Shown here one piece after another: positions 9,537 to 64,000 of a stretch of DNA of 64,000 nucleotides (position 1 is its first letter; each line of letters starts with the position of its first letter). The stretch covers positions 620,001 through 684,000 of the forward strand of contig OZ037876.1 in assembly GCA_964035575.1 (NCBI GenBank). Direction: 5' to 3'. Source of the DNA: Rhynchopus sp. YZ270_cl-10. Taxonomy: Eukaryota; Euglenozoa; Diplonemea; Diplonemida; Diplonemidae. The notes below the pieces were generated by a model. The model saw nothing but the letters and a program-made list of their open reading frames with translations, ran no database searches and was not told the DNA's origin. The position numbers and the translations under genes were made by a program.

Positions 9537-9573
9537 AAGATACGACTAAGCCTCGAGAGCATGTAGTCATCTT
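9537..9573 (+). repeat. Short hairpin repeat, CTAAGCC type
   Basis: AAGAT pairs with ATCTT and GACTA with TAGTC around an AGCCTCGAGAGC loop. It lies upstream of the C14-like gene and reads opposite to it. Confidence 0.6.
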
Positions 9574-9702
9574 TAAAAAAATATCAATAAAAAAAAGCAC
9601 GTTGTGCATTTTGTATTGAATTTTTGATGGTTTTAAAAAATGGCGGGATGCCTCTCATCAGTTCCTTTGCGATATGTCTCCCCAAAAAAAAAATAAATCC
9701 CC

Positions 9703-9731
9703 AGATGTATGTACCTCATGTGCACACATCT
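9703..9731 (+). repeat. Short hairpin repeat, GTGCACACATCT type
   Basis: AGATGT at the left pairs with ACATCT at the right around a TACCTCATGTGC loop. It follows an A9 tract. Confidence 0.55.
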
Positions 9732-9951
9732 CAAATACGTTCGAGAGTGTTGTTTTTTTTTTTTTACTTTATTTTATTGTGCGTTTTTGTGTATTTTTTT
9801 TTGAAAACCCATTTTTCTCGTTTGGGGAGGTGTTGAGGGAAAAGGGAGGGGGAAAGAAGGGGAGTTGCTGTGAAGATATAATCAAAAGGAGGGATCACTG
9901 GTAACAGAGATGGTTCCTTTCTTTGCTGCGCCCTTTTTTAAAATATCTTAC

Positions 9952-10011
9952 TTTTTTTTTTTTTTGAAAAATTGTTGGAATAGTGCAGTTGCCACATGTG
10001 CAAGCTCCACT
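9952..10011 (+). repeat. T-tract hairpin repeat
   Basis: T14 followed by GAAAAATTGTTGGAATAGTG, then GTTGCCACATGTGCAAGCTCCACTG. Shorter relative of the copies at 11837 and 13438. GGA/TCC and TTGC/GCAA pair in nested fashion. Confidence 0.65.
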
Positions 10012-11069
10012 GTTTTTTTGGGGATTTTCATGGGATGTGAGACGGGCTCGGCCCGGGCTCGGGACCCAGACTAGAACCGACAGCGTTTCCATACCCCTGG
10101 ACTATCAGGCTGCACATGGAGGATCGTTCAAAGAACGAGAAGAAAAAAGAAAAAAAAACAAAAGGTCAAAACATGCAATTATGCAAAAAAATAAAAAGGG
10201 GTGTGCAAATTTATTTTTGTTCATAACATGACAGTCGTCATCCACCCCACAATTCTGGAGGGAAAATGACCAAAAAAGGGGAAACAAAAAAAAAACGATC
10301 TTTTTTTCACCCTATGTTGATGGACTAAGTGTAGGTACCTTCTGGAGGTGACACTACGTCTGAGAAGAAAAAAAAAAGCTTGAAAGTGCGAATAACGGGC
10401 CGAATGACCGCCATGCAGTAGGGGGGGAATACTGTTACAAAGAAACAGCCCTGCCCGCTCGTCATAGAGTTGCGCAGGTTTTTTTTTTGGTACAGATGCA
10501 TCATAATGAGTGTTGAAATGTGATAAAACGCAGTTCGGTCGTGCTCATGCAAAGGGTAGGACGTGAGTGATCCGTACCAAAAGAGAACGGATCATAAAGG
10601 ATTTCAACATAATAATTATGAAATCAATAAATCGCTAGCAGAAATTTTCGTGTGCTTAGTCACCTTAATAACCTCTCGTCATCAGTTTGCATTACAACAC
10701 TATTTTTACGCGGAAGAAAAAAACTGTCTCGTTGCGTTATCACCTAAAAAATCCCATAAAAAATACGTTTAAGGGAGAGAGAGGGGGCAAAAAGGGATCA
10801 CCGCGTTTTTTGTAATGTTCACCCAAAACCCCCTTTGTTGGATTTTCCCCAGAGATAAATCCTTGAACTGTACTTCCTATGTAACCTTAATTTAGTTTGG
10901 GGGATGAACAAAATTAGGCAAACTTAAGATGGGGGAGGGAGAGGGTGGGAGGGGGCAAAGGGGGGAACAAGCGACAAGGGGACAAGAAAAAAAATTGAAA
11001 AAAATAAAAGGATGAACGGTCCTCAGAGGGGCGCGTTTACATCCTTCAAGGAAAAAACAGAAATGTTGG

Positions 11070-11106
11070 TCAGATGATTCTAAGCCTGTCGTGCTTAGTC
11101 ACCTTC
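11070..11106 (+). repeat. Short hairpin repeat, CTAAGCC type
   Basis: CAGATGATTCTAAGC ... GCTTAGTCACCTT. The CTAAGC/GCTTAG stem is perfect and the outer AGATGA/TCACCT stem contains an A-C mismatch. Confidence 0.7.
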
Positions 11107-11400
11107 AAGTAAGTAAGGTTGTGCCAAAAAAAAAGCTGCTGTGGACGACAGACACAACACCCCCGCAGACATGCCGAACTGTAGAGGACACTTTAGACAG
11201 AAAAAAAAAAAGCCTTTTGAAAAAAAAACGGAAATGGACGGACCTTTCACACCTTTTTATTATATTTTTATGACAAAAAAAATCGCCCACGTACTCCGTC
11301 CAAACTCAAATTTGGCATTTTTTTTTTTACCCCGAAAACCAGATAGACTTTGGTTCGTCCACTCCAGCAGCTTTAAAAGGGGGGGAAGAAAGAAGTTGAA

Positions 11401-11434
11401 AGTGCAAACGCCTCACCGTACATCGGCGGACACT
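11401..11434 (+). repeat. Short hairpin repeat, AGTGCAAACGCC type
   Basis: Preceded by AAGTTGAA. The unit starts AGTGCAAACGCCTC and ends GGCGGACACT; AGTG pairs with CACT and CGCC with GGCG. Same subtype as 17991 and 51473. Confidence 0.65.
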
Positions 11435-11836
11435 GAAAGGAAAATGATTTTTTTTTTTTTGTTGCGACAGCACTTTTGGTGTGTCTTTTTATTTTTTTGC
11501 AATATTTCCGCTGCCTTTTCTTTGGCCAATCACCATGCAAATTATGAATTTGTAGGGAACGGCAAATCTTCAGTTTGGAGGGGAAAAAATCTGTACCCAA
11601 AACGTCGCCCAAAACAAAAAAGGGCGCTAAATTTCAAATGTTTAGATGTAGAATCATCCTCAACTTTTGGACTGAATGTGCATTTTTTTTTCTCTTTTTG
11701 TTGTTGCTGTGTCGACAATCGCCTAAGGACCCGCTTGGGGAACCTAGGGTCTGGACTCAAATGTTGGCCGAAGCCTTTTGTACTACCGAAGGTCTTAACG
11801 TCAGTCGTCCTGAACCCTTGAGAGCAACTTTTATTA

Positions 11837-11908
11837 TTTTTTTTTGATAAATTGTTGGAGTAGTGTCGTTGCCTCGGTTGTGTTGCCACAGTTGTGCAAT
11901 CTCCACTG
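11837..11908 (+). repeat. T-tract hairpin repeat, long form
   Basis: T10, then GATAAATTGTTGGAGTAGTG, then GCCTCGGTTGTGTTGCCACA and GCAATCTCCACTG. GGAG pairs with CTCC and TTGC with GCAA. Nearly identical copies are at 12316 and 13438, indicating recent spread. Read on the minus strand the unit ends in a poly(A) tract, like a very small retroposon. Confidence 0.75.
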
Positions 11909-11910
11909 TA

Positions 11911-11970
11911 ATTTTTTTTTCTTGAAAACTTGGTTGTATTAGTGTAGCCACCCTAGAGTGTGCTCCACTA
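11911..11970 (+). repeat. T-tract hairpin repeat, short form
   Basis: TTTTTTTTCTTGAAAACTTG, then GTTGTATTAGTGTAGCCACC and GAGTGTGCTCCACT. Immediately follows the long-form copy at 11837-11908, making a head-to-tail pair. A second near-identical short form is at 12929. Confidence 0.75.
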
Positions 11971-12315: not shown

Positions 12316-12388
12316 TTTTTTTTTGAAAAAAAATGTTGGAGTAGTGTAGTTGCCTCGGTTGTGTTGCCACAGTTGTGCAATCTCCACT
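12316..12388 (+). repeat. T-tract hairpin repeat, long form
   Basis: T9 tract, GAAAAAAAATGTTGGAGTAG, then the same GCCTCGGTTGTGTTGCCACA core and CTCCACT end as 11837. Differs from it mainly in the A/T lead. Confidence 0.75.
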
Positions 12389-12928: not shown

Positions 12929-12990
12929 CTTTTTGATTTTTGAAAACTTGATTGTATTAGTGTAGCCACCCTAGAGTGTGCTCCACTAAT
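12929..12990 (+). repeat. T-tract hairpin repeat, short form
   Basis: TTTTTGATTTTTGAAAACTT, then GATTGTATTAGTGTAGCCAC and CTAGAGTGTGCTCCACT. Matches 11911-11970 almost base for base after the T tract. Confidence 0.75.
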
Positions 12991-13437
12991 ACAAGTTTTT
13001 TTTTTGTTCCTGCTTCTTTGTTGATAATATGTTGCCATACGAGGATGAAGTTAAGCCTCATCTCTATTCCAATCGTTATCGCGAAACAAAAAAAAAATAT
13101 GGATCAGTCCTCAAACAACCCTCGTCATTTGAAAAGCTTTTTGTTAAACAAATTCTCATAGGGAATGGGAAGAGGGGGGTTTTTTTAATGAATTTTTTGT
13201 TAATTTTGCTTTTGTACTCTTGTTTTTTTGTTTTTTTTTTTTTTTTGAAAACTTTTTTTTTTTACCATTCCTTTTTAGGGAACGGAGCATGCACGGTCCG
13301 TCGGCGGGCTTAATAGGAAGTTGCCTTTTCCTAAACATGCACACAACTGGCATCAAAGGGGAGGTGTCGTCACTCACCTGTATCATCATTGAAATACCAT
13401 TGCTTACCAATGGTACACTCCAATATTGTTGCCCCTG

Positions 13438-13525
13438 TTTTTTTTTTTTTTTTTTTTTTTTTGATAAATTGTTGGAGTAGTGTAGTTGCCTCGGTTGTGT
13501 TGCCACAGTTGTGCAATCTCCACTG
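13438..13525 (+). repeat. T-tract hairpin repeat, long form with T23 lead
   Basis: About 23 T residues, GATAAATTGTTGGAGTAGTG, the GCCTCGGTTGTGTTGCCACA core and CTCCACTG, immediately followed by another T run. Identical core to 11837 and 12316. Confidence 0.75.
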
Positions 13526-13627
13526 TCTTTTTTTTTTTTTTTTTTTTGGGTGTAGCCCAGGCTCTCCGCTAGGATTTCCGATTTTGAAAATATTCTGTTG
13601 ATGGTCCACGTTGGTGGGGTACATGCT

Positions 13628-13652
13628 TGCGCCGCAGGCGCACGGTACGCAA
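13628..13652 (-). repeat. GC-rich dispersed module
   Basis: Reverse complement reads GTTGCGTACCGTGCGCCTGC then GGCGC. The same module is at 14580-14604 and 16481-16501, and a variant with GCTTCGC in place of the GC hairpin is at 14679-14698 and 53449-53466. GCGCC and GGCGC can pair. Confidence 0.6.
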
Positions 13653-13803
13653 CTTTTTTTTTTACCAACGCCCGATTTTGACTTTTTTGGGACGTTTGAG
13701 GACTCACCTCTCCATATCTTCTTCTCCTGAGCTTTTTTGACAGGTAGAACGGGTCTGAACCACTTAGCAGAACTTTTTTTTTTTTTCTTTTTTTCCCCAT
13801 TTT

Positions 13804-13835
13804 CAAAAAGTTCTGTTGACAATCAACAGAACTTT
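13804..13835. repeat. Perfect 13-base palindromic hairpin
   Basis: AAAGTTCTGTTGA, a CAA loop, then TCAACAGAACTTT. The half-motif ATTCTGTTGATGG is repeated at about 13591. Confidence 0.8.
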
Positions 13836-13861
13836 AGTACCTAGCGGAGTGCCTGGTGTAG

Positions 13862-15114: not shown

Positions 15115-15212
15115 GTGTAGCGAAAGGGGAATAGGCACAATGCTGCCAATTACGAAGAAATTAGTTTCAAAAACTTTCAAATCAAAGCAGAAAACGAAAA
15201 ATAGAAAAGATA

Positions 15213-15247
15213 AAGATGAACCGAAGACTCTCATACTAGGTCACCTT
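15213..15247 (+). repeat. Short hairpin repeat, CTAAGCC-type variant
   Basis: AAGATGAACCGAAGACTCTC then TACTAGGTCACCTT. The outer AAGATGA/TCACCTT arm is kept, while the inner stem is degraded. Confidence 0.5.
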
Positions 15248-17175: not shown

Positions 17176-17196
17176 AAATAAAGAAAGAAAACTTCA

Positions 17197-17228
17197 AAGA
17201 TGAATATGCCTCTCGTGCACACACATCT
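17197..17228 (+). repeat. Short hairpin repeat, GTGCACACATCT type
   Basis: AAGATGAATATGCCTCTCGTGCACACACATCT, with AGATG pairing to CATCT. It lies 17 bases beyond the target duplication of the TIR element. Confidence 0.7.
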
Positions 17229-17324
17229 AAAGGGAGAAGAACGAGGGGGACATGAAGACCCAAGTATGCTTTTACAAGTTGATAAGATAACCCTTATGCA
17301 AGCCTCTGCTGTATCACCTTAAAA

Positions 17325-17372
17325 GTGAAGTTGATAGTGCAAACGCCTCTGGGACGCAGAGCACTGACACTC
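17325..17372 (+). repeat. Short hairpin repeat, AGTGCAAACGCC type
   Basis: GTGAAGTTGATAGTGCAAAC then GCCTCTGGGACGCAGAGCAC and TGACACTC. AGTGC pairs with GCACT. Identical to 49003-49050 except for two extra bases in the right arm. Confidence 0.75.
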
Positions 17373-17817: not shown

Positions 17818-17990
17818 TGGTCGGTAAAAAAATAGCTAATTTTTTTTTTGTCTGTAAATTGTTGCGCATAATATAGGTCAACCCTGGTTTTAGCCTTTTT
17901 TTTCACGTTGGAAAAACAAAAAAAAAACAAAACGAAAGGTTTGTAAGATGATTCCAAGCCTCGCTCAGTCACAAAAAAGAGAAGTTGAAA

Positions 17991-18029
17991 AGTGCAAACG
18001 CCTCACTGTACATCGGCGGACGTAGGCAC
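17991..18029 (+). repeat. Short hairpin repeat, AGTGCAAACGCC type
   Basis: AGTGCAAACGCCTCACTG, then TACATCGGCGGACGTAGGCAC. GTGC pairs with GCAC and CGCC with GGCG. A CTAAGCC-type remnant (17943-17971) lies directly upstream, making a pair. Confidence 0.65.
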
Positions 18030-25090: not shown

Positions 25091-26387
25091 CTATTTCACG
25101 GATGCTGACCGACTCATTGATGTGGTGGGTGACTCTTTTCTGTCGATTTGCTTCGGCTCGTGTTTGGGGCTTTCTTCTTCTTCTGGCTTCTTTTGACGCT
25201 TCGTGATGGAGTCCTTGCCCATGAAGTACTGATACAAGACACCTCCCAGAATTGTAAGTCCTGCACACAGGATGCCGACCCCCGAGGCGTGGTGTGTCCA
25301 CACGATACGGTTCACAATCAACGTCAAAAACTTATTTATGACCCCCAAAACCGTGAACGACGTTGGGTTCAGCGCCTTACGTGTGTTCAACCCAAAGAAC
25401 GAAATGGCCACCCCGACCACACAGGAAATGAAGACCGGGATAAAGACCTCACGCTCCCTCAGAAGGGTGAACGCCTTGGTGTCGAACGAGCCCTGTTTTG
25501 TTTTGTCGTATAAAAAAAAATGTTAGAATAGTGTAGTGCCTCAAGCACCACTTGCAATTTTTTTATTTGGGAAAAAAAACACATACCCCCGTAATGTTGA
25601 TATCACCTGTCGCGACCGACCCGATCGGGAAGAAGGCGAGCGCGATAGCGTTGTTGTAAAAGACAAGCCCCCAGCGTGTGAGGGACACATCTTCGACGAC
25701 CTTTTTGATGAGGATTGTGTCGATCGCCATGGCGAGCATGTAGAGGATCGCGTACATGTAGGCAGCCCACTTGAAGTCGGAGTCGGTCATGATGTAGACA
25801 ATAGAAGAGGCGACGATGAGCACCATCGACATCAGCGTCTTCACAGAGGGGACCGGGGTGCCCATGATCTTGATCTCGAGGAAGCACGTTATCAATGGCA
25901 CGCATGCACGCACAACAATGTATGTGTCCACATTCGCATGCTGCAGCAACTTCAGATTCGCCGCCACGCTAATGTAGAACATCACCACCGCAGGCAGAAA
26001 CTGCCACATCTTCGACCCCTCCAGCTGGTCCACCTCATCCACCTTGAACAGCCCAATCAACCACGCTATCAATGCAGAGAACCCAAACTGCAGTGCAGTC
26101 AGGTTCGCTCCGTACGAGTAGTGCAACTGTATGAAGTGTTGATTAGAGGGGGGAGGGAAAGGGAGGGAAAGGGGAGGGGTGAGACATACAAGCGCCCATT
26201 TGTTGATCACAACAAGCAGCCCCGCACTGATGGAGTACCCAACGGTCAAGAAAATGATGTACCCATACGCCTGGATTATTTCATTATACATCATGTGTAG
26301 GGAGGGGGGGGCGGTACGCTGTGGTACGCTGTTGTGGTGTGGGGGTGTCAAAATGGATGTAAACGAGACCAGACTTACAGTGGCCAT
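25091..26387 (-). CDS. TPT/SLC35-family membrane transporter (nucleotide-sugar or triose-phosphate type)
   Basis: Coding exons are about 26294-26190, 26126-25587 and 25492-25091. The introns are 63 and 94 bases with GTATGT donors and ACAG acceptors, and joining keeps phase 0. The start is uncertain. ATG 26294 gives MMYNEIIQAYGYIIFLTVGY and a complete first membrane helix. ATG 26387, either read through or joined by a short GTAAGT intron ending at CCACAG, adds about 11-31 residues. The product has about ten hydrophobic segments, the family INKWAL motif after helix 1, an ALQFGFSALIAWLIG helix, and near the end NPTSFTVLGVINKFLTLIVN followed by a Gly-rich helix ending GGVLYQYF, typical of Golgi GDP-mannose/UDP-sugar carriers. 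The C terminus is a polar cytosolic tail (KKPEEEESPKHEPKQ). The substrate cannot be read from sequence. The second intron carries a hairpin repeat. Confidence 0.85.
25512..25564 (+). repeat. T-tract-type hairpin repeat inside an intron of the transporter gene
   Basis: AAAAAAAAATGTTAGAATAG, then TGTAGTGCCTCAAGCACCAC and TTGCAATTTTTTT. It matches the TTGTTGGAGTAGTGTAGTTG-CCTC core. It sits between donor (25586) and acceptor (25493) and accounts for more than half of the intron. Confidence 0.7.
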
Positions 26388-28788: not shown

Positions 28789-29598
28789 ATACACTTCACC
28801 AAACAAAAAAAAATCCTCTTTTTGTGGTTCGTCCCCTTTCTAGAGGAAACAGAACTCGAAGGATTGGGGAAAAGGGGAAAAGGGAACCCTCAGAAAACCA
28901 GGAAAAAAAAAAATGACTTGAAATACAAAGCCCTCTCGTGACAGAGTGCCTTTTAAAAAAAAAGCCATACACACTGCATCAGGGGGGAGTTGACCCCGCC
29001 CCATTAACAAAAGATATACGAGCAGTGAAAGGTTTCACGGGAGAGGGGGGGAAATCATCGCTGGTGCGGTGAGGTGAAGGAAAATAAAGCAAAAAATGTT
29101 CAAAAAAATGACTAAAAAAAAGGGTCGTAACAAAACTACTCCAGCTTTAAGACGGAACACTAGCCTTCTACAAAATAAATGAAAAAAAACGGAACTGAAA
29201 AAACCAAAGCTGCGCGATTGTACACAAAAAACGGAATATAGGATTGCCACCTTGGACAAAAAAAATTTTTTTTGGGAGTTCTTTGGGTGTTCTCTCCTCA
29301 TTTTCTTTTTCTTTTTTGAAAACTTGGTTGGTATTAGTGTAGACACCCGATGAGCTCCACTATAATTTTTTTCTTTGCATAAAAACGAGTAGACATAATG
29401 GGAGAAACACATCTGAACCAAAATATGAGGAACAATAAAACGGGGCACGATAAACGCTAGGCGAGGAAGGCAGATAGAAAAAAAAAAAACAAAACACTCC
29501 TCTTTCTTCATGAAACACTCAAAAAACCCCAAAAAAAAAAAAATGATCAGATGAACCCAAAACGACCACGCCTAATCAATGCTTTCAATAAAAACACC
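28789..29598. other. Spacer downstream of the first kinase gene
   Basis: A/T-rich. Contains the T-tract hairpin at 29311 and a weak hairpin remnant at 29545-29585. No gene recognised. Confidence 0.5.
29311..29363 (+). repeat. T-tract hairpin repeat, short form, diverged
   Basis: CTTTTTTGAAAACTTGGTTG, GTATTAGTGTAGACACCC and GATGAGCTCCACT. Same class as 11911 and 12929 but older looking, having lost part of the central loop. Confidence 0.65.
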
Positions 29599-32500
29599 TC
29601 AGGCAATGGGGGTCCCAGGGCCCTCACTGGAACCCGAATGTTTGCAGGACCATTCGTGGGCATCGTCTTCCCCGGGGGTCTCTTCCTTTTCCTTGTCTTC
29701 TTTCTTTGCGGGAGATGTATCGCCCAATGGGGGGTTAGTTTCGAAGACTGCTGTCACGCTCTGGTGCACTGCGGGTGTGTCCATATCCATATCGATATCC
29801 AGAGAGACTGGAGACCCAGCAGGGGGTGACACTACCCCTGACATAAGACTGAACTGTGTGCCCATAGCCGGTGCAATGACCATGCTTCCAGGTGGTGGTG
29901 AGAGAGGTGGGCCTACACCTTCTGTCAGTGTCGCAACCTCGCTGAAGAGCGTCATCTGTGGAGGAAAATACAGTTGAGAAATACAAAAGTCTGACAGTGC
30001 GGTACAGGGGGCTGTACCTTACCCGGGTGGACCCCAACCCAATTAAGGTTTGCAGGTAAAGATGAAGCCTTGGTCACCTGAGAGATTCGATGACTTAGTG
30101 GAGAGCTTTAGCAAAGCTATGTTGGGTCTTTGGGGAAAAAAGTTTGGTGGCATTGGGTATAGTAAGCAATGTGTGAAGATAGAGGGCATACCTCGGGTCC
30201 CAGGAGCCCCGCTGCGGACGCACCCCTCGCAGGTTGTGCGTCTGCGAGCTGCAGCCACCGTTGCATGCACTCTGTGTCCATGCCTGTCCCGATGCCGCCA
30301 GCGTGGCGCCGCACCCCAGCGGCGCTGCTCTCCACCTCATCGGTCAGGGCATAGCTTTGCCCAGAGCCTGACGCAGCTTCCTTCATCCATTCTTGCTGCA
30401 ACAGTGTCTGTGGGGTTTTGAGTATGGAAATGCAGGTTGGAAAAAAAATTATGTGCGACATACCGTAGCGCAGGGACGTTCGTCAGGGTTTCTTTCAAAG
30501 CACATCTGCAAAAAGGCGCCGAGGGACCCCGAAATATCATCGGGAATGTTGTTAGGTGGCTCATTCGAATGGCTGACGTGGTACATCGCCATGAAGATGG
30601 AGTCGAATTCCCGCCATGGTGGCTTGCCTCTGTGGGGTTTGATATGAGTTGATTGGAATATGACAATGTGGTAGCAACATACCCGTTAATGGCTTCGACA
30701 GTGGTGCAGCCGACGGACCAGATGTCCGCCTTCGCGTTGTACCCATTGTTTTTGATGACTTCTGGCGCCATCCAGTAAGGTGATCCCACGCACGTCCCGG
30801 CGGCCTTTGTCTTGCTTGAGGCTTCCTTCGCACACCCAAAGTCTGCAAGCTTGACCCGCCCGTTCGCGTCCAGCAGCACATTCTCCCCCTTGATGTCTCT
30901 GTGGATGACACCCTTCGAGTGGAGGAACTCAAGGCCCTGAAGGATCTGCGCGACATATAGCTTCACAACGTCCTCCGAGAGACGCTCCGAGCACTTCTTG
31001 ACAAGGGATGTGAGCGACCCGCCGACGGCGTACTCCATGAAGATGTTGATCGCGTGGTTGCGTTCGTCCATGAAGAAGGCTTTGTATTCGATGACGTTTG
31101 GGTGGCGCAGCTTTTTGAGGAAGTCTACTTCGCGTTTGACTGCGAGGATCTCTTGTTTGACGTCGTCGCTGTTTACTTGCAGGTCTATTACCTTGACGGC
31201 GACGAGCTGGCCACCACGGAGCACACCAGTGTACACGGACCCGAAGGAGCCACGACCAAGCAGCTGCCCACGCACCCAGCCTTCGAAGATGGTGTCAGCC
31301 TCTGCCGCCTCCCCGTGGTCTTCATCTTGCACACCACGCATCTCGGTGCCGTGCACGCCAAGGTCCTCTTCCGCCGCAGGGGCGCAGATCTTATCAAAGT
31401 ACGCCCCCTCCTTAGTCCCAAGGTAGTACGGCATCGCGTACGTCTCCTTCAGTGCACGGAATCCGTCCAGCTCCTTCAGCCATTGAATCTGAAGCAAACG
31501 GAGGCGAAGCAGGTCAGGCTTCTCCCCAGCCTCGGCATCGCCATCCGAGGTGTACTGTCTCCGTCTGAGACCACCGATGTCAGTCTTCAGCTTCTTGAGA
31601 GAGGCCTGTCTGAAGGCTGTGCGCGACGCAAGGTCGGTGCCTTCCTCTGCATCCTCCGGCAGCGCTGTGTCCTTGTCGGTGTGTCGTCTGATGAGCTGGT
31701 GCACAACAACACAGAATATCAATCCAAGGAAGAGGATCGCAGACAGCCACCCTGGTTGATCGCGGCACGGCATCTCGTTCGCACCCATCTCCAGCCCAAC
31801 AGCAAAGGAAAGGAACACCGCCCAGACACCCATGCTCTGAAACAACACCCGATGGCGGTTCACATTGTAGAAGATAGACGGTGAAGACGCAGCTGCGACA
31901 GCGAGATAGGTCATCTGGATCGCAAGCGATAGGGCGAGCAGTGCCATCATGTCAGTGTGGAACACAGCCAGGCAGAGAACCTGCATCTGAAGAAGCACGA
32001 TGCGCGTCGCTTCAAATACACGTTTGTAGCGGATGTCCAGGTCATGTCTGTACGGGGGGTGGCCAAACGGTGTGGTCAGGTTCGACCCCGAATGGAAGCA
32101 TAAGAACGCCAGCAACAGGGTTGCCGTGCATGAGAAAAACATCAGTGTGTCGTGCGCAGTGCCCCAGCAGGTCACGTTGTCATCCGCAAGCATGACAAGC
32201 ACATTCGACTTGGGGTCCCTTCTGCAGGAGAAGGGGTGGGACAGGACCAACAGAAGTGGTATGTAAAAGAAGTTGCACAGCGCGCACATTGTTCTGTGGA
32301 CGTGGTAGAAACGTGCCATGCGTGTCTTCTGCAGATTCTCAAGAGAGGCGAGGAGGGACTTGAGGCGGAATCTGTTGCGCGGTTTAGACTCATCTGTTGC
32401 GCACCAGAGGGGAAGCCAGAGCAGCACCCAGACGTACACCAGGATGACACAAAGCGCGTACAATGTGTAAAAGGATTTGCCCTTTAAATCCATAAAAAAC

Positions 32501-36412: not shown

Positions 36413-37876
36413 GAAAAAAAGGGGGGGCTTGAAATATAGAGAACGCATGAAACCCAATAAAAAAAAGAAAATGATATCACAACAAAGCGAAGGGGGGGTC
36501 TATATTTCAAGAGCCCAATCCAAAAAATGGAATACCATTTTGCTAAATCGAATTTTTTCTCTCTTTTTTTTTTTTGAAGTGAAAATGGGAAAAACAAACC
36601 TAAAAACGGATCGGGTGCTCAGAATTACGTGCCTTGCACACACATCTACAGGTGTGTTTCTGTATCACATTAACTTCACAAAAAAAAAAAAGGGAAGGGT
36701 GAGGGAAAACTTGAAGGATGAATACTACCGATACATACATCTGAGTGGAGGTTCAAAGCTAGCTGCGTCCGTAACACAAAAAGAGGGGGGGGAAGCGGGC
36801 CGTGTGAGAGAGGTGCTTTTTTTTTTTTTGGAGAAGAGGATGGGATTTGTGTGGATCAAAAGAGGAAAAAAGATACACTGTTTTTTTTTAAAACTGTCCA
36901 GCATTTTTTTTTCCTGCAAATACAGCTTGATTCACATGGCGTGTAGATGGACATACACACATCATCTGACGGGAGAGAAACTCACAGCATGAATAACCAT
37001 CACGCAGACTTTGTGTGGTACGTTATCAAAAAACCGTGTGATAAAAAAAAAAAAAAAGGAAAAAAATATATTGATAAGATGATCCCCTGCACATCGTTGA
37101 TCACTTTTCAAAAGAAATTATTTGGACATCCGTAAACGCAATGTTACTTTTTACTTTCCTTCCCTCTTCCACTTCCCTTAGTTTTATTTTCCGCCCCCTC
37201 CAAAAAAACCGCATTTTTTTTTTGACAATATTTAATTTTCAAAAAGAAACCAAAACAAAAGCCTCAAGGAGTATATCACTTTTGTTTTGTAACATTTTTT
37301 TTTTTCCGTAAAGAAACACGCTCCCCAATTTTTTTTCAATCCTTAGTTTCTCTATAGAGTGATTGAAGTAGAATGATTGAAGGGGTTTACTACAAGGTTA
37401 CTATTTATTTTTTTTGGCATCAACATCACTGCACTTAGTCTGAAGGAAAACGAGAACACCAGGCACGGTCACCTGTTTGCTCATTATTTTGAACGGCAAG
37501 AGCATGGGCATGGGGGGGGACATCAGGTAGACGAAACATTGCTATATATAAAGAGTAAGGTTTGATGATATGTCCTGTACTGAGTCAACCTAAAGAAGGG
37601 GGGTAGAACACCAAAACATAGAAACTGACTTCAGGAAAATGATAGTATAATAAGAAAGAAAAGTTGTCACATGAATGCACCATCTTTGAGAAAAAAACGA
37701 GGGGGGAAATGGGGGGTTTTCGTTAGTCGCTCCGCGAAGCTGATGATTTTTTTTTTCTACCCCTGCAGTATAGTGTTGTAGTGTGGAGAGAGAAAAAAAA
37801 GGTAAACAAAGCTAGCGGGCCCCGTCAGTCGTTTCTATTTCCTATTGCCAAGAATTTGGTATAAAGAAAAGTTTAT

Positions 37877-37910
37877 AAGATGATCCTAAGCCTCTCGTGC
37901 TTAGTCACCT
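37877..37910 (+). repeat. Short hairpin repeat, CTAAGCC type, near-consensus
   Basis: AAGATGATCCTAAGCCTCTC then GTGCTTAGTCACCT, preceded by AAAAGTTTAT. The CTAAGC/GCTTAG stem is perfect. A second shorter unit (37922-37951, AGATGA...TCACCT) follows directly. Confidence 0.75.
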
Positions 37911-38548
37911 AAAAGAGAATCAGATGAAATTGAATTCATACGTAATCACCTAATAAAAAGGAGACAAACCGATAAAAAAATAGTGGTTCTTGCCGCAGGC
38001 ATTTTCCGACTACTCATATACGATGCGAACTCCGGAATGAAATCACAAAGTACCCTGCGGGCAACAACAGAAGAGCAGAAGATAAGACAAAGAAACCTTA
38101 CGGCTTGCCTGCACCATAGGGGCAACGGGGAGGGGCGGTGCACTACCGCTCTTCAGCCGCCCCAACTTCCGCTGAAGAGTTGTGAGCTTACAGGATACTC
38201 CCGTTCGCTGCACCCAACTCTGTGAACCATTACCGAGAGAAAAGAAGGGGGAGGGGGGAGAGGAAACACGTCCCTCTCTCTCTTGGCATCCCATGCTGTG
38301 ATACTGGGGTGTCACCCTGAGGGATTTACTGTAATACATGGACCTTACAACACACCAAATCAAGATGTGGCAGAGCGATCTCTGGCCTTGACTGTTGGTC
38401 AAAAAAAGGGGTTGTCTGATGTTGACAGTGGTCCATTAGGAAAAAAACGACATTTCATATGGCCAGGCCTTTTCTGTGTATCATCAAGCGCCTCCCTGGA
38501 GAAGAGTGTGGAAAAAAAAAATACCCAAAACGAAAAAGGATCTTTTGT

Positions 38549-38991: not shown

Positions 38992-39158
38992 TACACGACG
39001 TTGAAGTAAATTACTTTACTTGTGGTTTTACATGTCATTTTTTTTACTTGTGTTTAAGCTGTACGCTTACGTTTTTACGTGTGCCACAAGTAAACTATTT
39101 TCACAAGTAAAATTACATGTAAAACCACAAGTAAAGTCATTTACTTCAACGTCGTGTA
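38992..39158. mobile_element. MITE-like element, about 165 bp, with long TIRs and TA flanks
   Basis: TACACGACGTTGAAGTAAAT at the left and its complement at the right continue as near-perfect inverted repeats through CTTTACTTGTGGTTTTACAT, about 40 bases per arm, with a centre rich in ACTTGTG/CACAAGT. If the outer TA is the duplicated target, the element proper is CACGACG...CGTCGTG, as in Tc1/mariner-type MITEs. No coding capacity. Confidence 0.75.
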
Positions 39159-39851: not shown

Positions 39852-39869
39852 AACAAAAAAAAATGCTGA

Positions 39870-39923
39870 GAGTGGAGCTGCATAAGAGGGCAACTACACT
39901 GTTCCAACAATTTGTCAAAAAAG
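39870..39923 (-). repeat. T-tract hairpin repeat in reverse orientation
   Basis: Reverse complement reads CTTTTTTGACAAATTGTTGG, AACAGTGTAGTTGCCCTC and TATGCAGCTCCACT. It is the only clear copy of the family reading on the minus strand. Confidence 0.65.
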
Positions 39924-48246: not shown

Positions 48247-48870
48247 AAAAAAAAGTTTCCTCGTGATTTTTTTTTTGAGAGCACTTCGCTTATGTTTTGC
48301 ATTATTTTCAAAAATATGCGCGAACGTAACTCTGCACTAAAACGCAGATGCGAAGATAAAAGTTTTCATCACATATAAAAGAGAGCGTAAGATGATGGGC
48401 ATAAACTTAGTCACCTAAACACAGGTTCATATCATACTGTAATCGTAAACATTATCGAAAAAGGTCGAACTTCCAGAAAAATCCTGAAAAGGTCGAACAT
48501 TATTACGGTCGATATTTTTTACGCTTACGGTAAATACAACCTTATAACTGATGAGCACCATGTCATTTGAAGAAAAATAAGTATACTGCGAAAAGGTATT
48601 TCAACATGTGCATTCAATAAATTGATAGCATATGTCCCAGACAGAAAATACAAACATATCACTCATCACACGAAAAAAAAAAAATTGACTTGAAATACAA
48701 AGCCCTCTCGTGAACAGTGTACTTTGGTGCGTAAAAAAACGCGAGAGAAGTTGTAGTGAAACGCACCCACCTCGACCGGTTTGAGGCATGGGCTCTGCAA
48801 AGTGTATTCAAAATGCTTTGTTTCTATTTCCTCCTTCATGAGGTGACAGAAAACAAAGAAAAAAAAATGT

Positions 48871-49002: not shown

Positions 49003-49050
49003 AGTGAAGTTGATAGTGCAAACGCCTCTGGGACGCAGGCACTGACACTC
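49003..49050 (+). repeat. Short hairpin repeat, AGTGCAAACGCC type, best copy
   Basis: GTGAAGTTGATAGTGCAAAC, GCCTCTGGGACGCAGGCACT and GACACTC. AGTGC/GCACT plus GCCT/AGGC-type pairs. Matches 17325-17372 almost exactly, 32 kb away. Confidence 0.75.
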
Positions 49051-49954: not shown

Positions 49955-50907
49955 GTATAAAGATAAACTAGGACTAACGACAACTTTGAACAGTTTTTTG
50001 ACTGAGGGGGGGCTAAGTGGAGATTGGGGCTGAGATGACTTTTGAACACAGCCAGTTTTATTTCTGAGGGGGTTTGAAAATGAAAAAATGGGTGAAACAG
50101 GACATGAGCCTGGTAGTTGATACTGTGTATTTTTTTTTCTTCTTCTTTATTTCTTCTTTGCTTTTCCTTATTACTAATCACTTTATGTCAGGGGAAGACA
50201 AGAATAGAAAACTTGGAGGAATGGGTCTCTCGTGAAAAATCCAAACGAACGCGGGTTAACGTTAAGGAGATTACTTGTGGACAAAAAGAACTGTACGTTT
50301 GCCATTCGACTGATGCAACTTGCCACGACTGTGGGTAGTGTTCCTCACAGGAGGAAGCCAGCTCTGTCTGTAGATGCGTAGAACGAACGGAAGTGTGGGT
50401 ATGATTGTATGCTGTGTTGTGTCTAGTATGGGAAGACACAAAATAGAACAACAAAAAGGGGTAAAATGCTATCGCAGTTGCCAAGACAACAGTGTCGGTG
50501 TAGGTGATGGTATACTAACCTACGCTGTTCACTGCCAAAACACCATGTGTGCAAATATGTGCCTTCTGTACGAATGCAGGGAATCTGGCCCAACCCGGCA
50601 TTCCCTGACGCACAAGCTCAACATATTTCATCCACATTGGTATAGTGAAAACAAAACAGTACAAAAACACCCTGAAGATGCTGCACCATGTTGTAGAACC
50701 CTCTCAAAACTGGAAAAAAGGGATAATTTCCCTCTAATCTCTCAATACAAGTTCTCTGCTGGTAGCGGACTTGTATTTTGATCACTTTTTTTAACAATTA
50801 TTTTTGTATCGCACTGAGCTGTGGGTTGTGCCCAAGATCGCCCCAAAGGCAATAAAAGAGGTGAACCCTTAATAACCCTAAATAAGAAAAAAAAAAAAGA
50901 GAAAATT

Positions 50908-50940
50908 ATAAGACCACAGCCTCTCGTGCTTCGTCATCTT
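50908..50940 (+). repeat. Short hairpin repeat, CTAAGCC-type variant
   Basis: ATAAGACCACAGCCTCTCGT then GCTTCGTCATCTT; retains the GCCTCTCGTGCTT loop. Confidence 0.55.
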
Positions 50941-51472
50941 AAAAAAATAGGTTGTTCTGTGGGAGGTTTTTTTTCGTGTCGACAATCGCCCAAAGGCTGT
51001 TGTACTGAAAAGATAAGACGCAAAAATCGTCCTTAACTCAAGAAAATAACTTTTAGCTTTTGTTTGTTCTTTTTTGCATTCAGCGTGGATTTTATTTTTA
51101 CTTCGAAGAACAATGTGTTTGAGTTTTTTAGAACCCGGCGGCAGTGGTCAAATCCAATTTGGATGAATTCCTTTAAATGAAGAAAGGACATAACAGGATA
51201 TTGGACTGTCCGAGACGACTCTTGCAAGAAAAAAACGCAGATTTTTTGTCTCTGAAGAGGTAGCAAACCGGGCATAATGGCAGTGTACGTTTCCTTTGTG
51301 GGAAAAAAATAAACAACTGCAAACAAACAAAAAAACAAGAACACGGCTGTGGTTAAAACTGCCCCTGGGAAGGCCTTGGCGGCCTATCGTACCCGAGGAG
51401 TTGGTCCAGATGAGAAAAAAAAGGGGGGCAAAAAATGAATTTATACGCACTGTGAGAAAAAAAAATGGAGAA

Positions 51473-51512
51473 AGTGCAAACGCCTCACTGTTCATAGGCG
51501 GACGCAGGCACT
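51473..51512 (+). repeat. Short hairpin repeat, AGTGCAAACGCC type
   Basis: AGTGCAAACGCCTCACTG then TTCATAGGCGGACGCAGGCACT. AGTGC/GCACT and CGCC/GGCG both pair. Confidence 0.7.
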
Positions 51513-52252: not shown

Positions 52253-52308
52253 ATAAGAAAAAACTTGGTTGGGGCTAGAAGGTGCGTGATTGTAAAAAAG
52301 AACCATTG

Positions 52309-52338
52309 TAAGAATGTGCCTCTCGTGTGCACACATCT
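52309..52338 (+). repeat. Short hairpin repeat, GTGCACACATCT type
   Basis: TAAGAATGTGCCTCTCGT then GTGCACACATCTC; TGTGC/GCACA pairing. Lies 57 bases after the 52221 copy. Confidence 0.6.
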
Positions 52339-53826
52339 CTGCAAAAGGCTTGAACACAAAGTTCATTGTGTGTGTGTGCGTGTGTTTTTTTTCTGTTTTA
52401 TCCCGTTCATTTGTAGATGGAAAGAGGTGTGTCGGCAGACACTTAAACAAGAGGCTGAATCCCCCTACCCCCTTCCCACCTTGTACCGGGACACATGTGT
52501 TTAGCATCGACTGAGTATGTTCTGATTGCCACAACACAAAAGCAAAAAAGTGAATAACACAAAAAATATTTTGAGCTGAAAAGCACCACGCCCTTCTGGA
52601 TAAGTGTCGCTGCAAAATAATAAAGGCGAGCGTACAAAGGAAAGATACAAAAAAAAAAAACGAGATGATGGGTGGGGGAAATACCCATCCCAATACGAGC
52701 ATGTTGCTGCCATTTTCTTTTTTTAGAAACTTTATTTTGAATTGACAGACCAGGCACATAGGTCTCTGTAAAAGACGAAGGTTGCGGAACTCTGGTCTCA
52801 TACCCTTTTTTATAAACAAAAAAGCCAACGCATTGTGCTTAACCCATTGCAAAGCGAAATGTGAAACGGGTGGCACCTATGGGGGGGGAAAAACGAGCTG
52901 GCGAGAGAAAAAACCATTTTAAAAAAATCGGGTTATATTTTTTTTTGGAAAGGAGCTTTGGAGAGGGGACAGATGGTTGCTGCGTCGCATTTGGAGGGGG
53001 GTATGCGGAGGACAGCAGTTAAAAAAAACAGAAAAGAAAAAAACTTAAAGATAATGCATCTCTCATGACCAAGGATATCTCTAAATCCGTCCCTTTTTGG
53101 CCAAATTCCGAAATCCCAATCCAAAAAATTCCCTGTTTTTTTGGTATAGTTTTTGGGCTGTTTTTTGACTTTTTTGTGGGGGGAAAAAAAAAATTTCCCG
53201 ACATGTCGTCAGGGCTCTCGCCGGGGTTCATTTGGGGTCCCGAGCTTTCCCCCCGTAAAAGCGGTCGCTGCGCGCGCTTCGCGCGCGCGACTCCCTACCA
53301 GTGCAGGGAGGCGTGGCGCTTTCTCCCCTCTGATGCACAAAAGGTGGGGAGGGGTGAACCACAATCCGTAGTGTGTCAGCCTTATCAGTAACCTCGGCAC
53401 ATTTATGAAAGAAACGGCAGTCAGCAATGGCTCCCAAAGGTCCCTGGCGAAGCCACGGTACGCAACATTTGAGATCTCCTCCGTCTTCCAACCCTCATAA
53501 TTGAATGCGATTGACACGTCTTCTCCTTCTTCTTGTGCACAACCTCAAATGTCTCTGATGCTGGACGTTTGCCTGCAACTAACGTGAACATCCGCACCCA
53601 CAACTACAGCAACCGCCTGCAGAGCCAGTTTTTTCCTCAAAAATCCGGGATTTTTTTTTTTTCCTTTTCCCCTTTTTTCGCTTTATTTGATCGCGTTGAT
53701 CGATCGCATCCCACAGGCGAAACTCTCTGGGGGTGGGGTGGAGTAGAATGTACTTGAAATTGCTGTAGGGAAAAACAGGGAATTTTTTTCAGGGAATTTT
53801 TTTATTTTTCCGAAATCCCAATCCCT

Positions 53827-60524: not shown

Positions 60525-60573
60525 GGTGTTACATATTCTGTTTAAAATTGGGGGGAAAAAGAAAAAGTTTAAA

Positions 60574-60602
60574 AAGATGAACCTAGCCTCTCTGTGCTAA
60601 GA
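60574..60602 (+). repeat. Short hairpin repeat, CTAAGCC-type variant
   Basis: AAGATGAACCTAGCCTCTCT then GTGCTAAGA. It lies between the F-box-like gene and the decayed reverse-transcriptase fragment, and the right outer arm is missing. Confidence 0.5.
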
Positions 60603-60619
60603 ATGAGCGATATTTAAAA

Positions 60620-60965
60620 AAAAATTGGCGCAGCAGGGCGACCCGGCAGGACCACTTCTTTTCTCCTTAGGGATCAAGGAACTGACGGAGGAGGTGAAGG
60701 CGGTGCCGGGTATTGATGCCAGCCTGGTACCTCATGCCACGAGACCTGGGCTTGCCAGTGTGTGCCCATGGGGACCCGGAAGACGGTGCGTGCGAAGCGT
60801 GCGAGGGCCAGTCCATGAGGGTGCGGTACGGTGGGTTCGCATTTTTGGGGGAGCCCATCGGGGATGATGTGTTCTGCGAGAAGTACATGGATACGAAGGT
60901 GAAGAAGTTCGCAGAGCAGCTCCGCCTGCTCAAGAACCTCAAAGACGTGCAGGTCGGGTTGACGA
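60620..60965 (+). mobile_element. Decayed reverse-transcriptase fragment, non-LTR (LINE)-like
   Basis: After an A9 run, the plus strand codes QQGDPAGPLLFSLGIKEL, the conserved RT motif block (x-Q-G-D-P-x-x-P-L-L-F). About 130 bases on, in another frame, it codes GFAFLGEPIGDDVFCEKYMD, matching the L-G-x-P-I-G step that follows the RT active-site region in LINE-like and related enzymes. The block between them, which should include the catalytic YxDD-type segment, is shortened. The copy is truncated at both ends and frame-shifted, so it is a dead fragment. The exact clade is unclear. It is one of very few plus-strand coding remnants in the window. Confidence 0.65.
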
Positions 60966-61229
60966 GAGTGAATACCACTACAACATCAGCATGGCCGACA
61001 TGACAATGCAGGGCATTGTGGACAGGCTGAATTCACTGAAAGATGTGAACTTTGCCAGCTGGTAAAAAGATGTGGAATGGACCAACAAGACGAGTAAGAT
61101 GTTCCTGTACACACGTACCAAAGTCTACTGAAGGAGTGGAAGGGCACTCTGGACAAGAACGTCGTGACCTTGCTTGAAAAGGACACCCCAGGCTTGAGGG
61201 TGGCTCTTAGTGACTACATTAAGATGTGA
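60966..61229 (+). pseudogene. Unidentified coding fragment joined to the RT remnant
   Basis: Directly after the RT-like part, a frame reads SEYHYNISMADMTMQGIVDR then LNSLKDVNFASW. After a stop and a frame change it continues LLKEWKGTLDKNVVTLLEKD and TPGLRVALSDYIKM before a terminal TGA. Codon use looks gene-like and the predicted structure is helical. I do not recognise the parent. It could be the C-terminal part of a host gene captured with the retroelement or part of the element itself. Confidence 0.45.
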
Positions 61230-61403
61230 TGAGTGTGGGGTGTTGTTATTGAAGAAAAAAAAAATTAAAAAAAAAGGGAAATATTTTAGATTGTGAGGGG
61301 GTAAATGAAGGGGAGAACGACTCCACCCATATTAGAAAAAAGCGGAAGCTTTTTTAAAAGGGTCACCCTTTGGTGTAAATGAGGGGGTTTTAAAAGGTGG
61401 TCC

Positions 61404-63303
61404 TTAGTGGTGGAGCTCTATTCTTTTGATGCCTGTGATGCCTTGCTTCATGAGGTTTTTCATCATGGCGGGGATGTCGTCTGCTCTGATGCCTAGGTCG
61501 TTTTTGATTTCTTTGACTTCTTGCTTGCCGGATGCGAAGGTGACGAGAACACGGCGGCAGGAGGTGTTTTGTGCTTGGCCTACACCGCCGGAGATGTGCC
61601 ACGCGTTTCTGATCATGAGCTCGAAGTACGTGTCGCTGTCTATGCCCGCAGAGAGGTCCCCATAGTAGTCAATGAACTCCTCGAGAGTGATCGTCCCGTC
61701 GCAGTTCCTGTCCCAGTCCTCAATGAATTCTTGCATGACCTCCTCAGGTGTGCTCTCCTTCGCCATCACAGCAGGGTGTTTGTATACATCATAGATCTCA
61801 GCCAATTCACTGAAAGGTACCCGCCCAGACCCGTCCCGGTCAAGTCTGCTGAAGGCGAGTTTCACAAGTTCTACCCGTGCCCGTTTCATAGGCCCCCGTA
61901 CACCACGAACAAACTCTGTGACAGAAATGCTGCCATCGCCGTCGCGATCAAAGAACTGAAAGACAACCTCCAGCTCCTGCGCGGTGACGGAAAGCTGGTA
62001 GACCTGCAGACCTTCCTTTACCTCAGAGGGGGAGAGCTGTGTGTGTGGTGTCGTTTTTTTCCAAAAAAAATTCAAAAAATCACATCAATTTCAACATACC
62101 TTGTGGTTCCCGTTGTCATCCATGATCCGGAGGACTCGCGAAAGTCCTCTGAAGCCACGTTTCCCGCCACGCTTCAGGATCTTATTGCGGATGCGGTCTA
62201 GGACTGGGTCGCCTGTTGACGCAAGCGCTTCCTCGTCAGGGATGTTGACTAGCTTTGGCGGCTCTGCCAGCTGCCGTGCCTCCTTCTGGTAGAACCCGAA
62301 GTCAGCTCGCTGTGTGGTCTCCCACGTATGCGGGAGGTATTTGTTGCGCGTCTGCGGCTCCGGCGCACGACCACCTTTCATGTGATCCGTGTCGTAGTCT
62401 CTGTCGTTCAAAGGACGTGCCCGAGTGGCATACACCTCTGCCGCCGCCACTGGATGCTCGGGATGCGTTGGAAGGCCATGTGGCTGTGGGAGGTGTTAGG
62501 TGTGTGGTATTTGCAACAGAGTTGATTGTGTGTGTCTGGCATACATCGTACTCCGGCGTCCCGTTCGGAGCAAAGCGCGGCCTTGCTGTGTCATTGAGCT
62601 GAAAGGCCTCCATCACCATCATCTCAAAGTAGTCGTCGTTTTCAACATTCTGGCTGAGTCTGAAGACGGATGGCAATTTATTTTTTTGATCGGACAATGA
62701 TTAGACACGATTATTTGAGTAAAGTGAAAAAAAGGAACCCATGGGGAACTTGGGGCCACACTCAAAAAAACAAAATCGCACATACCCTGCATAGAATGCG
62801 TCAAACTCCTCCTGCGAGATGAGGCCGTCAGGGTTGGTTGCGTCATCAAAGTTTTCGAGAAAGTCGCGCGCAACCTGCGCCTCGCTCTTCTCACCACTGA
62901 GCACTGCTGGGTGCGTCGCTGTACTGTAGCGTGCCCGGAGCTCGTTGATGTCGACCTGGCCACTGCCATCCACATCAAGGGCTTGGAACGCCTTCCGCAC
63001 AATGTTCTTGCGACGAGGGTTCATGGCAAGACGCAGGCCGCCAAGGAACTCCGCCAACGACAACTGCTTGTCACCATCCTTGTCGAAGGCGACCATGATG
63101 TACTGCACCTCCTTATCCGTCAGCGTCACGCCCCAACCGAGGAGCCCCTCCTTCAACTCCACCGCAGACAGCGTGCTGTTCCCGTTCTTGTCCATCCGGC
63201 GAAAGTCCTGTGTAAACTCGCGTATACCATTGTTCCCACGCTGCATCGCCGCCCTCTTTATCTTGCTCATAATAGGGTCCTCCAGCCATTGCCTTGACGT
63301 CAT
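61404..63303 (-). CDS. Tandem calcyphosin-like protein with eight EF-hand loops
   Basis: Four exons: 63303-62786, 62659-62545, 62483-62100 and 62036-61404; introns 126, 61, 63 bases (GTATGT/GTATGC donors, CAG acceptors). Joining FYAG from exon 1 to LSQNVENDDYFEMMVMEAF in exon 2 makes one 549-residue protein, although each half looks like a separate gene. Module 1 (about 1-210): MDKNGNSTLSAVEL, FDKDGDKQLSLAEF, LDVDGSGQVDINEL and a divergent fourth loop (FDDATNPDGLISQEEF). Module 2 (about 290-470): MDDNGNHKLSPSEV, FDRDGDGSISVTEF, LDRDGSGRVPFSEL, WDRNCDGTITLEEF. Both modules end YxxxLSxxxxxDxYFExMxxxA. A C-terminal extension (VTFASGKQEVKEIKNDLG) follows. Calcyphosin-type proteins bind calcium and are often ciliary; that role here is inference. 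TTTTTCTCAG lies 2 bases before the ATG. Confidence 0.87.
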
Positions 63304-64000
63304 TGCTGAGAAAAAGCAAAAAAAGAAAAAAAAATGAATGCCCTGTAGATTTGTGTGTAATGAAAAAGAAAAAAATGATCGTACCAATCCTCTTACGGTG
63401 TTCATGGCAGAAGGGGATATGGGAAGTTTATGTGAAGTCTACATGGTGAACACTATCTTTACTTATCATGAAAGAGTTAGAGAAAATGGCAAATAAAAAA
63501 AATATGGGATTTGCACGTACACAGAGAGAGAAGCTTTTTTTTTTTTTTCTCTTGAGGAAATAAAGAGTCGGGGGCGGTAGTAGTGATAATATTTTCCCTT
63601 TTTTTCGTTCATTGAATTCAAATGGTTTGAAATAGAAAAAAAAAATAGGACAAAAATCGAAAAGTGTTGATGGCGCTCCCAAAGGGGGCGCTTTGATTTT
63701 GAAGAGCCTCTGGCAATTCAGTTATTCCTTATGTTTTTTTTTCCCCTTCTAAAAATCAAAGCAAAAGGCGATGGGGGTGTGAACAAAGGTAAAGGTTTTT
63801 AAGTGCAGACACCTCAACTGGACGTGGACACCAAATACCCCCCTTCGCGGCTGAACAAAAAAAAGGGAAGACATTTGAGAAATAGTATCACCCCCCGGGA
63901 AACAAAAACAAAAAACGAACCGAGCTGAAACACGACGAATAAATTGAAATAAAGACAATTTGTAAGATGAATGTATCTTCCATGAGGACACACGTCTCCA
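63304..64000. other. Upstream spacer
   Basis: A/T-rich with T12 and A9 runs. A weak AGTGC-type remnant sits at about 63800-63830 (AAGTGCAGACACCTCAACTG). No gene recognised. Confidence 0.5.
63963..63998 (+). repeat. Short hairpin repeat, GTGCACACATCT type
   Basis: TAAGATGAATGTATCTTCCA then TGAGGACACACGTCTC; preceded by ACAATTTG. Outer AGATG/CGTCT pairing is partly G-T type. Confidence 0.5.

Follow-up and report, generated by a model that had tools for sequence, protein, structure and literature searches.

Scattered through the spacers of the diplonemid Rhynchopus sp. YZ270_cl-10 are hairpin units of about 55 nucleotides (nt) whose strongest feature is their orientation: almost without exception they read in the same direction as the genes around them. 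They are described here from a stretch of 64,000 nt (positions 620001-684000 of contig OZ037876.1, or C44; hereafter the window) and from the rest of the genome, 152.4 Mb in 126 contigs. An original prediction, made from the letters of the window alone, had noticed the hairpins and not their orientation, and the units are far more widespread than it had supposed. The explanation that we favor, at about an even chance of being right, is the RNA-mediated spread of a superfamily of miniature repeats whose direction is set by transcription.

Orientation and copy number

Gene blocks in the genome around the window are long and confined to one strand. The proteins encoded in the window, among them kinases, a gamma-tubulin complex protein, a transporter, and EF-hand proteins, are all on the minus strand. 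Within the surrounding 264 kb, that strand carries 51 of the 63 stop-to-stop open reading frames (ORFs) of more than 300 codons, and 10 of the 12 such ORFs on the plus strand are nested inside a minus-strand ORF. The other two (208859-210349, 497 codons and longer than its minus partner, and 221799-223070, 424 codons, in coordinates of the 264-kb region) may be genes or chance.

A covariance model (CM; R1), seeded with 18 window copies and used at a reporting threshold of E<=1, found 24 units in the window (the 18 seeds and 6 new ones) and 67 in 250 kb of sampled loci (L001-L025). All 91 matches in these 314 kb are gene-sense, including 67 of 67 outside the window; 18 of the 91 are the model's own seeds. 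The longest ORFs of L021-L025 are on the minus strand as well, matching the units there. A further 26 kb gave one match and the 10 kb of L032 gave three; the long ORFs of L032 are on the plus strand, and so are all three matches. An ungapped sequence scan of 344 kb (<=17 mismatches over 40 scored positions; gene strand assumed for the 20 kb of L026-L029) returned 79 sense matches versus 1 antisense, while the reversed consensus gave 2 and 1.

Does the rule hold beyond these samples? Among the matches listed genome-wide, the strand of the nearest unit is that of the kinase gene in all 46 kinase genes (of 127) with a unit within 300 kb, and in 25 of 25 within 100 kb. Since the listed copies lie no more than 2 bases from the consensus, even the youngest units are already one-way. 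On contigs C1 to C10 the listed units form clean one-strand blocks, and in 8 of the 10 the minus-strand units lie to the left of the plus-strand ones, a pattern suggestive of divergent transcription from the middle of the contig. Trypanosomatid chromosomes are transcribed divergently from the middle. Insertion in both orientations, as in MITE-type elements, was not found, although D and D2 have one antisense member each. Repeats in general, coding ones included, are less strict, with 66 same-orientation and 31 opposite-orientation pairwise matches of >=150 bp. Targeting of T tracts was rejected as the cause of the orientation because runs of >=8 T and of A on the sense strand are too even in number (398 versus 290).

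The 34 fixed bases of the unit occur at 942 places in the genome, and a 23-base core with <=2 mismatches occurs at at least 4,156 (2,097+2,059), versus 0+0 for the reversed patterns. A rough extrapolation from CM density, in which most of the sample is a single neighborhood, arrives at tens of thousands of units.

Architecture of the units

The commonest unit, type A, reads in RNA sense AAGGUGA-CUAAGC-A-C[GAGA]G-GCUUAG-GN-UCAUCUU followed by a tail, AUAAACUUUUCUUUU, for about 55 nt in all; as sense-strand DNA it is (A)AGGTGACTAAGCACGAGAGGCTTAGGNTCATCTTATAAACTTTTCTTTT. Copies align to one another across some 55 to 60 nt, and 94 at most, and the length of hundreds of bases typical of SIDER and SINE repeats was not found. 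The fold predicted for types A and B has two helices capped by a C[GAGA]G tetraloop; one A is bulged, and a further bulge of 2 nt lies on the 3' side. The subtypes had been proposed to be related, and this is borne out by a 9-mer, CACGAGAGG, common to A, B, and E and set within different stems; in the sampled loci it occurs 38 times in sense and once in antisense. Type E is laid out as GTACACTGTT-CACGAGAGG-GCTTTGTATTTC. In the A/B/E loop, ACGAGAGG coincides with the sarcin-ricin loop octamer of large-subunit rRNA, a likeness that perhaps reflects no more than the GNRA tetraloop context. Types C, D, D2, and F are other hairpins, most of which end in AAC plus a U/C- or U/A-rich run; type C, for example, has the layout AGTGC...GAGGCGTTTGCACT and then AACTTC.

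Among 157 repeated noncoding 12-mers in 182 kb, 123 are strand-locked (>=7 loci), 11 occur on both strands, and 23 are neither. The strand-locked words build mainly pieces of A, C, D, E, and F and the both-strand words mainly one GC-rich repeat. A GC-rich dispersed repeat with GTTGCGTACCGTGCGCCTGCGG (window 13620-16500) lies in both orientations, unlike the hairpin units. Longer palindromic repeats of another kind are also present: CACAACTTTT, AAGTACTTGA, and ACTTGTGGTTTTAC (window 53870-54120, 27880-28760, and 39005-39130). Units are frequently joined end to end with other short repeats, and a motif like GCGATAACGATTGTGAT stands directly upstream of a type A/B unit at 6 of 8 sense motif places (L010, L011, L024, L025, and the window end). 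A compound element made of a unit and the upstream motif GATAACGAT was considered and rejected: a unit follows at 6 of 8 sense motif places, but most units have no motif.

Which strand folds? The hairpins had first been read on the plus strand; the folding strand is mostly the minus, which is gene-sense. The A.C mispair of AAGATGA/TCACCTT on the plus strand is a G.U in AAGGUGA/UCAUCUU on the minus. The unit at 37874..37913 folds at -12.2 kcal/mol in sense versus -7.7 in antisense, and that at 17194..17231 at -14.0 versus -6.4. Of 52 matches to eight unit patterns (C and C-long may share copies), 44 fold more stably in sense and 7 less stably. Sense is stabler in 12/12 matches of A, 6/7 of C, 6/6 of C-long, 9/9 of E, 3/3 of F, and 5/5 of D2, and in only 2/5 of B and 1/5 of D. 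Noncanonical cells on the sense strand comprise 33 G.U and 10 A.C. The preference for G.U over A.C in most subfamilies (not B and D by folding energy) suggests a structure formed by gene-sense RNA. In a folding scan of the whole window, the excess of stable folds is modest and the strands barely differ (556 windows below -12 kcal/mol versus 336 shuffled on plus, 578 versus 306 on minus).

The claim of at least 40 units in the window holds up, with about 40 countable as A/B from the CM plus C, D, D2, and E. They are listed below, scores in bits being those of the CM. Counts from fuzzy patterns (C, D, D2, E, F, the 9-mer, and the folding comparison) vary with the mismatch limits chosen.

37874..37913, minus: type A, near-consensus; 51.7 bits; hairpin, with tail to ~37861
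11068..11107, minus: type A; 43.7 bits
38546..38587, minus: type A, G-C where the family has G.U; 43.2 bits
47675..47715, minus: type A; 43.1 bits
48155..48195, minus: type A, A-U where the family has G.U; 37.4 bits
40213..40254, minus: type A; 38.7 bits
39999..40036, minus: type A; 36.9 bits
23880..23919, minus: type A; 38.1 bits
15213..15249, minus: type A; 37.4 bits
49916..49955, minus: type A, 5' arm decayed; 35.1 bits
36378..36414, minus: type A; 34.1 bits
9534..9575, minus: type A; 27.7 bits
17533..17569, minus: type A; 26.6 bits
17281..17322, minus: type A-like; 25.2 bits
39812..39851, minus: type A-like, non-seed; 24.4 bits
18716..18757, minus: type A; 24.2 bits
17194..17231, minus: type B, loop CACGAGAGG as in A on another stem; 38.9 bits
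17449..17486, minus: type B; 37.4 bits
36284..36322, minus: type B; 22.4 bits
48878..48898, minus: type B loop and inner stem; pattern match
52307..52341, minus: type B, non-seed; 19.2 bits; loop match
50907..50942, minus: type A/B, non-seed; 19.6 bits
17942..17977, minus: type A, weak, non-seed; 16.2 bits
27674..27713, minus: type A, weak, non-seed; 16.0 bits
63961..64000, minus: type A/B, weak, non-seed; 15.5 bits
48218..48246, minus: type C; pattern match
49015..49043, minus: type C; pattern match
51473..51512, minus: type C-long; pattern match
17336..17365, minus: type C; pattern match
11392..11435, minus: type C-long; pattern match, upper end from sequence
17981..18029, minus: type C-long; pattern match, upper end from sequence
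48692..48725, minus: type E; pattern match, upper end from sequence
28920..28952, minus: type E; pattern match, upper end from sequence
13470..13523, minus: type D (first described as a T-tract class); pattern match; plus strand folds better
12334..12387, minus: type D; pattern match
11853..11908, minus: type D; pattern match, upper end from sequence
12940..12998, minus: type D2; pattern match; fold z -7.0 sense, -5.8 antisense
11924..11970, minus: type D2; pattern match
39866..39915, plus: D-like, antisense to the genes (exception); pattern match with 5 mismatches, ends from sequence
60541..60604, minus: type A directly upstream of the ATG at 60524, tail a possible 3' splice acceptor, its AAACAG ending 13 bases before the ATG; by eye
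30050..30082, minus: decayed A-type, sense, inside a likely intron of a kinase gene; by eye
25520..25560, minus: hairpin plus TTCTAAC plus T tract, sense, inside a likely intron of a transporter gene; by eye

Decay of resident copies

Do the copies now in the genome depend on their fold? Two of them, near 38549 and 48158, had been said to carry opposite single changes that each restore pairing. The family pair there is a G.U, which pairs already, and the two copies have G-C or A-U instead, so the changes are not compensatory. The broader claim, that stems differ between subtypes and still pair, is supported, although only some measures exceed shuffles and few independent stems contribute. In a loop-anchored alignment of 38 copies, of which 22 are distinct, pairing holds in 72.7% of cells versus 62.5% with the 3' letters redealt, and double-change cells number 24 versus 13.6 (each 0 of 500 shuffles). 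Double-change pairs (5 versus 4.4, 242/500) and further pair types (12 versus 13.1, 424/500) show no excess in the same alignment, and once the copies are reduced to 8 clusters, paired cells number 17 of 40 versus 16.2 expected, with 2290 of 5000 shuffles as high. The CM-fitted alignment (A3) has 38 double-change cells versus 13.7 (0/500), yet partners slid by two columns give 40. The 18 seed copies show nothing clear (83.0% pairing versus 81.1%, 35/500).

In type A copies with 3 to 13 mismatches, stem cells changed on one side number 50 still paired and 119 broken, and those changed on both sides 6 and 9, indels included. With the 15 of 45 likely-indel copies removed, 332 of 390 cells pair versus 325 and 321 under two substitution nulls (p ~0.03 and 0.04), a slight excess. 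Genome-wide, pair 9-23 is A-U in 942 copies, G.U in 61, A.C in 15, and G-C in 1, with one double change versus 1.0 expected; the 61 G.U copies may be a subfamily. Pair 5-29 is G-C in 942, G.U in 10, A.C in 9, and A-U in 2, and its two doubles versus 0.1 expected are a small sign of compensation. Decay in subtype A is thus near-neutral, contrary to the proposal that selection maintains the folded copies, and covariation was set aside as proof of such selection.

Placement and ends

In the 264-kb region, 76 of 77 units fall clear of any sense ORF of >=200 codons, and interruption of coding sequence by units with both splice sites, in the manner of introners, was not found. Distances to the next and previous ORF are about those of random noncoding positions. 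Distances to ORF ends, taken as a proxy for 3' untranslated regions (UTRs), likewise resemble those of random noncoding positions, and a role as a gene-start signal was rejected for want of enrichment near ORF starts. In two genes (window 60524 and L032 7874-7944) a type A unit directly precedes the start codon and an AG lies between the two, an arrangement for which chance placement can suffice. By eye, the unit tail is similar to TAAAACCTTCTCTTTACAG and CTCAAC...CACAG, with which likely introns of the window end.

How the units may have spread

The origin that we propose would begin with a source RNA, a hairpin of two helices (having the C[GAGA]G tetraloop and the 2-nt 3' bulge in A and B) that carries a short tail of AAC and a U/C-rich run. 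Transcription would fix the direction in which this RNA is copied into the genome, by either of two routes. (i) It may enter nascent polycistronic pre-mRNA, by reverse splicing or ligation, and then return through reverse transcription and recombination. (ii) An R-loop formed during transcription may expose the strand into which it inserts. The resident copies would be mostly inert and decaying. The RNA intermediate, the insertion chemistry, and the source RNA are the parts that we infer. A fold that matters for the source RNA would explain why the stems of the subfamilies differ and still pair. Random placement and near-neutral decay suggest that structure matters at copying and not at the resident site, and that most residents do little, so that their common direction is best explained by insertion. 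That near-identical copies are already one-way argues against slow purging. The likeness of the AAC-pyrimidine tail to intron 3' ends makes a splicing-type reaction attractive, albeit unproved. A bolder version, speculative and probably wrong, is that the units are RNA parasites of the polycistronic transcript, entering pre-mRNA as it is made, through a reaction akin to splicing, and coming back to the chromosome by reverse transcription as sense copies only, and that they are a possible raw material of euglenozoan noncanonical introns.

Several results weigh against RNA-mediated spread. Antisense members exist: one D2 on C20, one D-like at 39886, and one bare 9-mer, besides weak pattern matches to two C (not unit-like) and one C2. 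The antisense strand folds better in 4/5 of D and 3/5 of B, and the predicted fold of type E has a wider loop and does not show the GAGA tetraloop. A strict search for empty sites with the joined flanks of 57 units gave one spanning match, low-complexity and to another unit copy; a loose search gave 356, crowded with self matches and low-complexity ones. By eye, 9 of the 10 least-changed copies, whose flanks are low-complexity, show no clear target duplication; the tenth (L004:859) has TCTTTTGTTT on both sides, a possible 10-base duplication. Truncated copies show no 5' excess (43 with both halves, 9 with the 3' half only, and 17 with the 5' half only, the last class including some chance matches), and 5'-truncated retroposition was rejected on these counts. 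Fast purging of antisense copies could also yield the sense bias.

What else could produce a one-way repeat? The main rival, unlikely in our judgment, is that the units are processing signals: hairpin, AAC, and pyrimidine tail would form a 3' splice acceptor (cis or spliced-leader trans), or a decoy, that cuts spacer RNA, and selection would keep only the sense copies. The intron-like tail and the two genes with a unit right before the start codon speak for it, as does a 3' arm about half as variable as the 5' arm (36 changes at 14 positions versus 65 at 13). Such signals sit poorly, however, with near-neutral decay and with the lack of excess near ORF starts or ends; an A/B unit stands beside the start in just 1 of 11 upstream stretches of window ORFs (one of these stretches lying inside coding sequence), and several units have, by eye, no AG in a fitting place. 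Bacterial REP/RAYT and HUH elements act on single-stranded DNA, and a miniature DNA transposon of that habit, directed by whichever strand transcription or replication exposes, is a less probable source still. It would account for the short palindromes, for an orientation locked to megabase-long blocks that are possibly replication domains too, and for the possible 10-base duplication in 1 of 10 young copies. The consensus, however, pairs G.U on one strand and not G.T and A.C equally, and neither a general target duplication nor an empty site was found.

It is improbable that the units are genes for small structured noncoding RNAs, such as single-hairpin H/ACA-like RNAs, with many pseudogenes cotranscribed in the polycistrons. 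Sense orientation, a hairpin with a short conserved tail, and several subfamilies would suit this origin, and H/ACA-like and AGA-like RNAs are described for trypanosomatids (PMC2613932). Thousands of near-identical, randomly placed copies are not gene-like, however, and the window has no Rfam match at the gathering level; a scan of L024 at E<=1 gave merely weak microRNA matches, off the units. No tRNA was found in the window or 30 loci, and an exact 25-mer of unit A had no match in collections of viral contigs and of genome contigs. Most improbable of all is that a repeat of any mechanism inserts both ways and its antisense copies are quickly lost as harmful in transcribed spacers. Most Leishmania SIDER2 repeats likewise follow the direction of the polycistron (PMC2424063), which would suit such a loss; copies within 2 bases of the consensus that agree with kinases in 46 of 46 cases (among the matches listed), and other repeats that persist both ways, argue against it.

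Genes and spliced leaders in the genome

Likely introns of window genes have, by eye, the form GTATG...CAG, and (G)/GTATG donors are given for three Diplonemidae in PMC12621601. Two large kinase genes lie close together (window 30337-35550 and 41631-47261), and further kinase matches fall just past the window (C44:690908 and C44:695193). A euglenozoan spliced-leader (SL) core matches 449+288 places genome-wide at <=1 mismatch (737 in all) versus 1+0 for a control; the dinoflagellate leader is absent at the same limit, and a dinoflagellate origin was rejected. In the one array read, CCAACGATTTCTAAAGCTACAGTTTCTGTACTTCATTG is followed by GTATGG; together with the long gene blocks on one strand, the array fits a diplonemid genome. 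Many of the listed places belong to clusters of SL RNA genes spaced ~0.42 to 0.74 kb apart (L033; C1:1392686 onwards). Lone cores with no GT donor after them (L030 1501-1520 and L031 1501-1520) look like the 5' ends of retrocopied mRNAs or like SL genes in decay. SL RNA was rejected as the source of the units: it too has a stem and then AACTTTG, yet the unit sequence differs by eye.

Significance and comparison with known systems

If direction is fixed at insertion, the genome would hold thousands of natural records of RNA-level insertion, a route proposed for intron gain and hard to observe, and the units would also mark the direction of transcription in this genome. If selection removes antisense copies instead, spacer RNA would be under a strong and unsuspected constraint. 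A published description of such units was not found in a search that left supplements and most subscription papers outside. What, then, do they resemble? Bacterial REP/BIME hairpins are likewise very short, abundant, palindromic, and extragenic; the units differ in being eukaryotic, direction-locked to gene blocks, and paired in the manner of RNA. Group II intron domain V, of about 34 nt, has two helices, a 2-nt bulge on the 3' side, and a GNRA tetraloop, and the predicted A/B fold resembles it and other GNRA-capped hairpins, a comparison of resemblance only. Unlike group II introns, the units have no catalytic triad that we recognized and no other intron domains.

Closer to home, the SIDER2 repeats of Leishmania are, like the units, dispersed noncoding repeats of a euglenozoan, mostly directed with the polycistron (PMC2424063). 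They are described as ~0.5 kb long and predominantly in 3' UTRs, whereas the units are ~55 nt, show no placement bias, and fall into several stem subfamilies. Introners are also short and dispersed, some families having neither target duplications nor terminal repeats, and those of fungi have been interpreted as RNA-based reverse-splicing elements (PMC9860276). Unlike introners, the units are not introns in coding DNA and have no evident GT...AG frame of their own; they lie in spacers and likely introns. The noncanonical introns of hemistasiid diplonemids and euglenids share with the units a short length (median 37 nt in A. motanka) and pairing ends, and a MITE-like origin has been proposed for the hemistasiid ones (PMC12621601). 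The genes here instead have GTATG...CAG introns, and the units avoid long ORFs. Judged by the passages covered of the three papers, a hairpin of tens of bases that runs near-strictly in sense through spacers is what distinguishes the units from SIDER2, introners, and hemistasiid introns alike.

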